Source: an uncultured Clostridia bacterium (GTDB lineage Bacteria; Bacillota; Clostridia; Oscillospirales; Ruminococcaceae). From it: 64,000 nt of DNA. The notes below the pieces were generated by a model. It made no database searches and was not told the origin of the DNA. It saw only the letters and a list, made by a program, of their open reading frames with translations. Positions 30,277 through 36,436 of the stretch are shown piece by piece (within the stretch, counting starts at the first letter, position 1; every line of letters begins with the position of its first letter). Made by a program: the position numbers and the translations under genes. The stretch is from positions 1 through 64,000 of the forward strand of contig CANQLR010000009.1 in assembly GCA_947624745.1 (NCBI GenBank). The letters are read 5' to 3'.

Positions 30277-30636
30277 CTACTTTCTCGCCACCCCCGCCCC
30301 CGCCATCACCACCCCAAGTACCATCAGCGCGGCGTTTCCCTGCAGCAGCAGCGCCCCTATACATGCCAAAAACACCCCCATTTTGACGGCTAATTCTCCG
30401 TTCTCTGCGTTTTTTGCCCTGTGCGCCACCCTTGAAATTCCCGTCCCCAGCATAATTACTACCCCGAGCAGAAGCAGCGTTGCCCCGAGCGCCTTGGCGG
30501 GCTGCTCCAGCGCTCCGAAGCCGATTTTCGGGAATTTCCCGAGCCTTGACAGCACTATCCCGCCCGCGGTGAGCGCTGCCGAGAAAGTCGCAAAAACAAG
30601 CCCACGGCCGGGGCGAGTCTGACCGTTTTTATCCAT
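30277..30636 (-). CDS. Small multi-TM membrane protein (119 aa)
   Basis: Four hydrophobic segments; SD ggaggg upstream; upstream TATAAT on minus strand near 30659. Confidence 0.65.
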   Translation of the reverse strand: MDKNGQTRPGRGLVFATFSAALTAGGIVLSRLGKFPKIGFGALEQPAKALGATLLLLGVVIMLGTGISRVAHRAKNAENGELAVKMGVFLACIGALLLQGNAALMVLGVVMAGAGVARK

Positions 30637-30697: not shown

Positions 30698-30713
30698 GTT
30701 AGCGGCAGCTAAC
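30698..30713. promoter_or_regulatory. Dyad operator site GTTAGC-GGCA-GCTAAC
   Basis: 6-bp arms separated by 4 nt; same motif as 30751-30766. Confidence 0.75.
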
Positions 30714-30750
30714 CTATCTCCCAAATAAAAGCCGCAGGAACGGCGGGCAC

Positions 30751-30766
30751 GTTAGCATATGCTAAC
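30751..30766. promoter_or_regulatory. Perfect 16-bp palindrome GTTAGCATATGCTAAC, DtxR/IdeR-like operator
   Basis: Perfect palindrome; same half-sites as 30698-30713, 53 bp away. Confidence 0.78.
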
Positions 30767-30873
30767 TGAAGTATACCACAGCCCCGAAAAAATGTCAAGA
30801 GGCAAATTAAATTTTCCGGAGCTATTGCAAATCGCGCGGAAATGTATTAAAATAGATAAAAAGGAGGGCTAAA

Positions 30874-32037: not shown

Positions 32038-32113
32038 GCGGATTTAGCTCATCCGGTAGAGCGCCACCTTGCCAAGGTGGAGGTAGCGAGTTCGAGCCTC
32101 GTAATCCGCTCCA
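32038..32113 (+). tRNA. tRNA-Gly (GCC)
   Basis: gcggatttagctcatccggtagagcgccaccttGCCaaggtggaggtagcgagttcgagcctcgtaatccgctcca; encoded CCA. Confidence 0.95.
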
Positions 32114-32116
32114 TAC

Positions 32117-32190
32117 GGTGTCATAGCCAAGTGGTAAGGCGTAGGACTGCAACTCCTTGACCCCCGGTTCAAATCCGGGTGACACCTCCA
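32117..32190 (+). tRNA. tRNA-Cys (GCA)
   Basis: ggtgtcatagccaagtggtaaggcgtaggactGCAactccttgacccccggttcaaatccgggtgacacctcca. Confidence 0.95.
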
Positions 32191-33923: not shown

Positions 33924-33980
33924 AATTAAAGTAGTTTGCGCGTAACAGACTATCAAAAAATGAATTGGAGGATCATAACA

Positions 33981-34628
33981 ATGAAAAAAATTCTTGCAGT
34001 TGTCATAGCCGTTATGATGGTTATGGCGCTCTCCGTAAGTGCTTACGCAGTTACGGTCGATCTCACTCAGGACAACATTGCCGGCAATGACGGCGATTAC
34101 ACCGTCGGCGACAACTCCATCACTTCGAGCGGCACCAGCTTCAGCGTTAAGCTCCCCGAGAACGTTCCCGACGGCGAGACTGTTACCGTCCACATCAAGG
34201 GCTCCTTCAACGGCGACTTCAGAGTCTGGCTTGCCTGCGGCGGCGCTACCTTCTCGTCCGAGCCTCTTTGGAAGGCTTCCGAGCAGGGCGTGACCCCCGG
34301 CGAATTTGATGTTACCTTCGATCTGACTGCCTTCCCGAAGGACGGCACCGGCACCGAGGCGGACTGCATCATGTTCAAGGCTCCTTCCTACGACTCCAAG
34401 CTCGACAACTTCACCCTCACCTACCTCTCTATAAACGGTGATGAGGCTCCCGCTGCTGCCGAGGAACCCGCTGCCGAAGAGCCTGCCGCCGAAGCTCCCG
34501 CCGAGGATGCTCCTGCTGCTGAGGCTGCTCCCGCAGAGACCGCTGCCGCTCCTTCGACCGGTATCGCCCTCATGGTGATTCCAGCCGTAGTTGCCCTTGG
34601 CGCCGTCGCTGTTTCCAAGAAGCACTAA
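33981..34628 (+). CDS. Array surface protein 1: signal peptide, variable ectodomain, A/P/E linker, PSTG-TM-SKKH tail
   Basis: MKKILAVVIAVMMVMALSVSAYA...AAAPSTGIALMVIPAVVALGAVAVSKKH. Confidence 0.9.
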   Translation: MKKILAVVIAVMMVMALSVSAYAVTVDLTQDNIAGNDGDYTVGDNSITSSGTSFSVKLPENVPDGETVTVHIKGSFNGDFRVWLACGGATFSSEPLWKASEQGVTPGEFDVTFDLTAFPKDGTGTEADCIMFKAPSYDSKLDNFTLTYLSINGDEAPAAAEEPAAEEPAAEAPAEDAPAAEAAPAETAAAPSTGIALMVIPAVVALGAVAVSKKH

Positions 34629-34731
34629 TTCGGAAAAGATGAAATAAGAGTTCTCGCAAGGGGGCTCTTTTTCGTTGCCTATAAAAAATTAACGTTTTCG
34701 ACTATTCGTTCTGCCAAATAATTAACTTATA

Positions 34732-34760
34732 TTGACTTTTCCGCGGCAGGGTGGTATAAT
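34732..34760 (+). promoter_or_regulatory. Promoter of array gene 2
   Basis: TTGACT, 17 nt, TATAAT. Confidence 0.75.
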
Positions 34761-34810
34761 TTCAGTACAGACGCGAGATCGCGCCAAAAATGAAAACGGA
34801 GGTTTTTAAA

Positions 34811-35497
34811 ATGAAAAGAATTTTTGCAGCTATCGTTGCTGTGATGCTCGTTGCGGCCCTTTCCGTCAACGTTTTCGCAGCCGAGGCTACCGTTACCGGC
34901 CAGTTCAAATGCACCTTTGAACCCAACGATTACGACAGCGCCATCGTTGTCGGCTCGCTCTCCGGCGAGAACATCGAGATCGACCACACCTGGGGCATGG
35001 ACTTCCCCGACATCACTCCTCTTATCGAGACCGTTGCGCCGCTCAGCTCCGTGAAGCACATCGACATCACCATCACCGCGAGCGACGTCACCCCCGATTC
35101 CAAGGTATCCTCTGTCATGTGCGAGATCAAGAAGAACACCCGCGACGGCGAGCAGCTCGTCGACCCCACCCCCGCCTTTGTTGACGGCGCGGTTGTCGCT
35201 TCCTTCGACGTTCCCGCCGACTGCACCAAGGTCGTTCTCAACCCCTACGCCTTCTCTGCCGATTCCGGCGAGATCACCTTCGACCTCACCCTCGTTCTGA
35301 CCGGTGATTTCGAGGCTCCCGCCGCTGCCGAGGAACCCGCTGCCGACGAGCCTGCCGCCGAAGCTCCCGCCGAGGACGCTCCTGCTGCTGAGGCTGCTCC
35401 CGCAGAGACCGCTGCCGCTCCTTCGACCGGTATCGCCCTCATGGTGATCCCCGCCGTAGTTGCCCTTGGCGCTGTCGCTGTTTCCAAGAAGCACTAA
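34811..35497 (+). CDS. Array surface protein 2
   Basis: MKRIFAAIVAVMLVAALSVNVFA + distinct ectodomain + identical PSTG tail. Confidence 0.9.
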   Translation: MKRIFAAIVAVMLVAALSVNVFAAEATVTGQFKCTFEPNDYDSAIVVGSLSGENIEIDHTWGMDFPDITPLIETVAPLSSVKHIDITITASDVTPDSKVSSVMCEIKKNTRDGEQLVDPTPAFVDGAVVASFDVPADCTKVVLNPYAFSADSGEITFDLTLVLTGDFEAPAAAEEPAADEPAAEAPAEDAPAAEAAPAETAAAPSTGIALMVIPAVVALGAVAVSKKH

Positions 35498-35601
35498 TTC
35501 GGAAAAGATGAAATAAGAGCTCTCGCAAGGGGGCTCTTATTCATTTTATCGACAAAAATAAACGCGCGGTATTATGCAGAGTGACAAAAATTTGCCTGCT
35601 A

Positions 35602-35630
35602 TTGACTTTTTCGGGGCGGAGTGGTATAAT
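35602..35630 (+). promoter_or_regulatory. Promoter of array gene 3
   Basis: TTGACT, 17 nt, TATAAT. Confidence 0.75.
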
Positions 35631-35686
35631 TTAAACGTAGTTTGCGGAACACCGCGCTAACAAAATGAAAATGGAGGAACATTAGC

Positions 35687-36436
35687 ATGAAAAAGTTTTT
35701 AGCTGCGGCTATAGCCGTCATGATGATTGCTGTAGTCATGGTAACGCCTGTTTCGGCCGTTAATACCGACAACAAGTACATTACCTGCCATTTCTGGTAT
35801 CAGGATACCGCCAACTGGACTTGGATCCAGGCAACCCCCGGTGACGTTCAGGTACCCCTCGGCGAGACCGTTGAGCTCAAGTGGACCGACTTCTCCAACG
35901 TTATGGATCTGCCCACCACCGCCAACATTCAGTTCGGTCTCCAGTTCGACGACGGAACCTTCGACACCGACGGCGACACCTCTACGGTCGCTGTTGAGGT
36001 CTCCGACCTGGTCATAAAGGCCACCGGCTATGACGACGTTACCGTTGCCATCGGCGGCTCCTACACCTATGACCTCGGCCCTCTCGACACCAGCGCGGGC
36101 TACAGCCAGAACCACTGCTTCGTCTTCAACGATGAAGCCACTGCTGCCATCACCGCTGTTGCCGGCTCGGACGCCGCTTCTATCCAGACCTACCTCGCTG
36201 CCATCACCGACGCGACCATGACCCTCACCTACGTTTCCTACAACGGTGAGACTGCCGCTCCCGCTGCTGCCGAGGAACCCGCTGCCGATGAGCCTGCCGC
36301 CGAAGCTCCCGCCGAGGACGCTCCCGCCGCTGAGGCTCCCGCTGAGACCGCCGCCGCTCCTTCGACCGGTATCGCCCTCATGGTGATCCCCGCCGTAGTT
36401 GCCCTTGGCGCCGTCGCTGTTTCCAAGAAGCACTAA
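35687..36436 (+). CDS. Array surface protein 3
   Basis: MKKFLAAAIAVMMIAVVMVTPVSA + distinct Trp/Tyr-rich ectodomain + identical PSTG tail. Confidence 0.9.
   Translation: MKKFLAAAIAVMMIAVVMVTPVSAVNTDNKYITCHFWYQDTANWTWIQATPGDVQVPLGETVELKWTDFSNVMDLPTTANIQFGLQFDDGTFDTDGDTSTVAVEVSDLVIKATGYDDVTVAIGGSYTYDLGPLDTSAGYSQNHCFVFNDEATAAITAVAGSDAASIQTYLAAITDATMTLTYVSYNGETAAPAAAEEPAADEPAAEAPAEDAPAAEAPAETAAAPSTGIALMVIPAVVALGAVAVSKKH

Follow-up and report, generated by a model that had tools for sequence, protein, structure and literature searches.

Candidate DtxR-type operators flank a terminator-like element upstream of a small membrane protein gene in a Clostridia bacterium lacking Fur

Introduction

In low-GC Gram-positive bacteria, iron is controlled by Fur and manganese by regulators of the DtxR family, according to a recent review (PMC10317159). 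The same review describes Met10 and Cys102 of IdeR as sulfur ligands that increase selectivity for Fe2+, with Asp/Asn and Glu at these positions in MntR, and gives the classical DtxR/IdeR box as TTAGGTTAGSCTAACCTAA (PMC10317159). Here we analyzed a 64,000-nucleotide stretch of DNA from an uncultured Clostridia bacterium of the Ruminococcaceae (assembly GCA_947624745.1, contig CANQLR010000009.1, positions 1 to 64,000; hereafter the window), in which two GTTAGC-N4-GCTAAC dyads precede a minus-strand gene for a 119-aa membrane protein. These dyads are almost certainly operators of the single DtxR-family repressor of the genome, to judge from their sequence context, and a terminator-like element lies between them.

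Repressors bound downstream of a transcription start are known to act as roadblocks to polymerase, as in the cases of PurR, GalR, CcpA, CodY and LacI. In the available portions of two reports, release of the blocked polymerase is ascribed chiefly to Mfd, or else to Rho, and no built-in terminator is mentioned (PMC4132739, PMC10310618). For the locus described here, the best explanation, which we consider quite probable, is that a DtxR-family repressor would block initiation at the promoter-proximal dyad (A) and trigger termination at the downstream dyad (B).

Results

A preliminary description of the window had reported two dyads with identical half-sites and a centre-to-centre distance of 53 bp, and the sequence agrees exactly. 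Operator A (GTTAGCATATGCTAAC) occupies 30751-30766 and operator B (GTTAGCGGCAGCTAAC) 30698-30713, each a dyad of 16 bp around a 4-bp centre. The entire genome (2,573,951 bases) contains six exact copies of GTTAGC-N4-GCTAAC, two of them in the window, compared with an expected 0.02-0.15 (second-order Markov to independent-base models) and one match to a reversed-pattern control. When positions 6 and 11 were relaxed (GTTAGN6CTAAC), the same six sites were recovered from the whole genome and none besides. Exact dyad pairs with spacers of 14-44 bp were found in 11 of 31 genomes of the genus, as against none for the reversed-pattern controls. The five-turn helical spacing to which the preliminary description had drawn attention appears to be incidental, since the A-B distance ranges from 30 to 64 bp in relatives; helical phasing of the pair was thus ruled out.

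The locations of the sites were equally informative. Three of the six belong to a feoA-feoA-feoB operon (7382, 7701 and 7800 on contig C55), and one (2642 on contig C42) precedes a gene whose 87-aa product is a heavy-metal-associated (HMA) protein. A scan for the motif near feo and other metal genes had been proposed, with random scatter as the outcome to be feared; it gave instead these six sites, four of them at metal genes, and the set is an iron-type regulon rather than a scattered repeat. Amongst relatives, dyads are likewise located at feoAB, heavy-metal-domain, ZIP and other genes. That the dyads might have arisen by chance or be some generic repeat without a part in regulation is a negligible prospect: near-matches with one mismatch do occur elsewhere, e.g., within a reading frame on contig C82, but the genome-wide count, the site locations, their conservation and their overlap with promoters all contradict it. 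The only other one-mismatch dyad in the genome (L010, 1591-1606) lies within a 355-aa, replication-gene-like frame on a small contig and is probably due to chance.

A candidate promoter for the 119-aa gene (30277-30636, minus strand) was found directly next to operator A. It comprises the -35 hexamer TTGACA (30793-30798, minus strand) and the -10 hexamer TATACT (30770-30775, minus strand), i.e., TTGACA-N17-TATACT at 30798-30770 with 11 of 12 consensus matches. Operator A starts 3 bp past the -10 hexamer and thus overlies the predicted transcription start at about 30763, which puts operator B at about +50, within the transcribed leader. The same layout of promoter and dyad is present at feoA and at the HMA gene of this genome. 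Amongst 80 distinct dyads from fetched loci, 36 have a promoter with at least 10 of 12 consensus matches whose -10 hexamer ends 0-12 bp before the dyad, compared with a mean of 0.7 and a maximum of 3 in shuffles. The TATAAT at about 30659, earlier taken for the promoter, has no -35 partner. The assignment of the 30277-30636 gene, and not the plus-strand HAD gene, as the target did hold, the promoter of the HAD gene beginning 58 bp beyond operator A and its start being free of any dyad. The operator identity and the promoter are strongly supported.

As to the regulator, the preliminary description had advised a search for DtxR and MntR homologues, and the genome proved to contain one DtxR-family gene, with a product of about 120 aa, and no Fur-family gene. 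The protein matches Pfam Fe_dep_repress (34.9 bits, cut-off 26) and Fe_dep_repr_C (56.5 bits, cut-off 27). Alignment with DtxR places all primary metal ligands, i.e., Met10, Cys102, Glu105 and His106 in DtxR numbering, and the corresponding EMYLE...DACxxEH pattern is retained in most of the DtxR proteins of relatives. At the ancillary metal site, H79 is kept and both E83 and H98 are replaced; the recognition helix has Arg where DtxR has Gln43, and a C-terminal SH3-like domain is absent. The best NCBIfam profile is MntR, at 81 bits and below its cut-off of 153. Because E83, H98 and the SH3-like domain are missing and the best profile is MntR, we describe the protein as a putative DtxR-family repressor with an iron-type site, and as neither IdeR nor MntR proper.

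The nature of the metal can be weighed on the same evidence. That the same operators serve an MntR-like repressor and manganese would fit the best profile and the two-domain size of the regulator, but Met and Cys stand at the positions at which MntR has Asp/Asn and Glu (PMC10317159), the operators sit on feoA/feoB, which encode a ferrous iron transporter, and the genome lacks Fur; we regard this alternative as quite improbable. From the ligands and the regulon, we infer iron to be the effector metal.

Dyads and DtxR genes also occur together. Across 60 relatives, dyads were found in 48 of the 54 with a DtxR gene and in one of the six without (Fisher p=4.6e-4, phylogeny ignored), and no association was seen between dyads and Fur. 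Fur was accordingly rejected as the regulator, being both absent from this genome and uncorrelated with dyads in relatives. In relatives L028, L040 and L044, the DtxR gene and feoA are transcribed divergently, and dyads lie between the two. Hence the proposal that the dyads are DtxR-family operators gained from the metal-gene locations, the promoter overlap and this co-occurrence, while the resemblance to the classical DtxR/IdeR box did not hold, the sites being GTTAGC-N4-GCTAAC rather than TTAGGTTAGSCTAACCTAA (PMC10317159). It is very likely that the operator and regulon part of our explanation is correct. We also observed two dyads separated by 99-100 bp in front of feoA, in this and other genomes (L009, 7701-7815; L040 and L044, 1501-1616); this spacing of about 100 bp is retained where, in L040 and L044, the pair sits between feoA and the divergent DtxR gene.

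Between the two operators of the window lies a terminator-like element that the preliminary description had overlooked. An RNA hairpin, GCCGT-TCCT-GCGGC (30731-30744, minus strand), is encoded in the leader and ends 17 nt before operator B. Its position taken alone has p=0.037, and counterpart hairpins are present in the aligned leaders of two relatives (G007 and G004). Whereas the A-B distance ranges between 30 and 64 bp, the end of the hairpin in most long-spacer leaders lies some 13-18 nt short of B. We scored hairpins ending 13-19 nt before B, a range chosen after inspection of the genus/family set; in that same set, 8 of 13 leaders had p≤0.056, with a combined p=3.7e-6. The test was then run unchanged on a second set, i.e., dyad pairs collected by searching 394 genomes across the whole order, the sequences of which had been viewed by eye beforehand, with range and energy function kept unaltered. 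With all 19 leaders the combined p was 1.5e-10, and with the 15 non-redundant ones it was 2.6e-8. Promoter-proximal single dyads had no hairpin excess (p=0.98) and internal single dyads a weak one (p=0.03); one internal site, which separates the two feoA genes of the present genome, has a strong hairpin ending 14-16 nt in front of it. Short-spacer pairs had no extra hairpin and only modest T enrichment.

The leaders tested had no match in Rfam, and a known RNA family was set aside as an explanation. A degenerate third operator between A and B, though conceivable in some leaders, was also set aside, several of the hairpins being unrelated in sequence. In many leaders, dyad A itself forms the 5' arm of a hairpin at the extreme start of the RNA. 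Across nine leaders with dyad A as one arm, 34 of the 36 N4 positions, which are otherwise free, pair with the opposite arm (against a permuted mean of 19.9; P=1e-4, a value that is too small because the nine were selected for having such a hairpin and some are related).

Directly after the window hairpin follows a T-tract, TTTTATTT (30723-30730, minus strand), which stops 9 nt short of operator B. Counts of T at -18 to -10 are raised both before downstream operators (175 vs. 90 ± 7 in shuffles) and before promoterless single operators (134 vs. 84 ± 6.5). In a curated set oriented by promoter and reading frame, the T fraction was 0.66 and 0.60 at the T-tract position, -17 to -10, as against 0.34 and 0.37 at the mirror position across the palindrome. 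The tract is also found before internal operators without a hairpin. A symmetric protein site does not explain such one-sided enrichment, and the direction of transcription does; the tract was therefore dismissed as half of a symmetric DNA site. Nor is it a second -10 box, many of the tails being plain T-runs (e.g., CTTTTT) with no TATA-like hexamer. On the transcription side, and there alone, the downstream operator is preceded by hairpin and T-tract at a fixed distance.

Two further readings of the leader have to be judged against this arrangement. According to the first, repression is of the plain double-operator kind: B serves to raise occupancy or as a simple roadblock cleared by Mfd, and the hairpin and T-tract are uninvolved in release. 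The downstream roadblocks cited above and the short-spacer pairs that do without an extra hairpin agree with it, but it does not predict that T-tract and hairpin should lie on one side only and keep their distance from B where A-B spacings run from 30 to 64 bp, and we think it rather unlikely. According to the second, the hairpin prevents backward sliding of a roadblocked polymerase or stabilizes the 5' end of the mRNA, with no termination; this would suit the many leaders in which dyad A supplies the 5' arm, yet the T-tract, which occurs also where no hairpin does, is left unexplained, and the reading is very doubtful.

The 119-aa protein, described earlier as uncharacterized, has relatives. 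Orthologues were found in three genomes of the same genus (uncultured Clostridia metagenome-assembled genomes named 'Lapin', rabbit by name), and every orthologue found is preceded by dyads. One orthologue, of 161 aa, scores above cut-off for both PEMT and ICMT of Pfam; three short forms (119-127 aa, window protein included) are without its C-terminal segment. A profile of these three compared with one of five full-length relatives gave 99.1% probability (E=6e-19). By sequence, the 119-aa protein is thus best classed as a C-terminally shortened member of a PEMT/ICMT-like group, and it probably has no methyltransferase activity; the RNP motif and the C-terminal EEKWL..FG..Y..Y segment, both conserved in full-length relatives, are absent from it. 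In the three relatives, the orthologue lies behind an HMA gene; one dyad directly precedes the orthologue, and others lie in front of the HMA gene. The leader in the window can be aligned with that of the HMA operon of G007, so that the HMA gene of the present genome has probably moved out of the operon, to its place on C42 behind a promoter and a dyad of its own. The neighbours of full-length relatives are, in L090, an ArsR-type repressor and a heavy-metal P-type ATPase and, in L094, a ZIP transporter; the family is thus metal-associated beyond this genus.

Several other genes were observed behind dyads. Eight genomes of the same genus (L034, L049, L050, L052-L055 and L059) encode a stand-alone single-helix membrane protein of 36-42 aa (MIITILSAAVISTAILLATSLVKRLCR...), with no NCBIfam match, whose gene is preceded by a strong promoter, paired dyads and a long leader hairpin; it is likely a new small member of the iron regulon. 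DUF3793 proteins repeatedly lie directly behind dyads in many genera (L041, L042, L051, L101, L103, L110, L124, L125, L137 and others), a recurrence that suggests an iron-related role for this uncharacterized family. A NifH-like gene follows a promoter with paired dyads at two loci (L060 and L126). Elsewhere in the window, three consecutive secreted-type proteins (33936-36436) share a nearly identical Ala/Pro/Glu-rich C-terminal tail ending STGIALMVIPAVVALGAVAVSKKH, and two adjacent tRNA genes lie on the plus strand at about 32038-32187 (Rfam matches in L056 at 2841-2990).

Discussion

We propose that the metal-loaded repressor would occupy operator A over the start of the TTGACA-N17-TATACT promoter and block initiation, and that any escaped polymerase would run into a second repressor at operator B. 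A transcribing polymerase halts about 10-15 bp short of a bound protein, which for the window would place the RNA end in the T-tract. The repressor at B may therefore hold polymerase with U-rich RNA in the hybrid just past the weak hairpin, which would then release it; the element would be a repressor-gated intrinsic terminator. Under iron scarcity, A and B would both be vacated, and the 119-aa protein would be made along with FeoAB and the HMA protein. We infer this roadblock-assisted release at B from the arrangement of the leader, and hold it to be likely on balance.

Several points weigh against the explanation. About one third of the second-set leaders have no gap-free hairpin at the expected place, and the hairpin of the window is weak, with five pairs including one G-U. 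The hairpin p-values are rough and optimistic, as some leaders share ancestry. Finally, the MntR profile as top score and the replacement of E83 and H98 may leave some room for manganese.

More broadly, the chances are about even that these leaders represent a class found across the order, in which a DtxR-type repressor bound about one polymerase front-edge past a hairpin and T-tract makes a weak terminator efficient. One regulator could then set initiation, early termination and intra-operon steps (before feoB or the second feoA), with no Mfd needed. If true, this would be a simple attenuation device and would predict two-level repression at many operons simultaneously, and the terminator geometry could be rebuilt in a laboratory strain. 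A literature search, itself incomplete in coverage, returned nothing directly on point for this motif or for a roadblock combined with an intrinsic terminator.

Compared with DtxR/IdeR of Actinobacteria, the regulator has the winged-helix and dimerization domains and the Met10/Cys102/Glu105/His106 ligands in common, together with GTTAG/CTAAC half-sites and the presumed repression of iron-uptake genes; it differs in lacking the SH3-like domain, in the replacement of E83 and H98, in the Gln43 to Arg change and in its operator, GTTAGC-N4-GCTAAC rather than TTAGGTTAGSCTAACCTAA. With MntR of Bacillus and E. coli it shares the two-domain size and the top profile score, whereas it carries iron-type Met/Cys in place of Asp/Glu and its operators lie on feoAB. 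In contrast to the division of labour given in the review, a Clostridia species without Fur thus appears to control its iron regulon by a DtxR-type repressor with a distinct operator. Like the roadblocks of CodY, CcpA, PurR, GalR and LacI, operator B is a repressor site downstream of the start, in the transcribed region; unlike them, it has a T-tract, and in most cases a hairpin, in front of it at a fixed distance. As in riboswitches, TRAP-type leaders and other attenuators, a leader terminator would stand between promoter and gene, but no RNA-binding ligand was found in the leaders tested, and the proposed trigger of termination is instead a DNA-bound repressor past the terminator.
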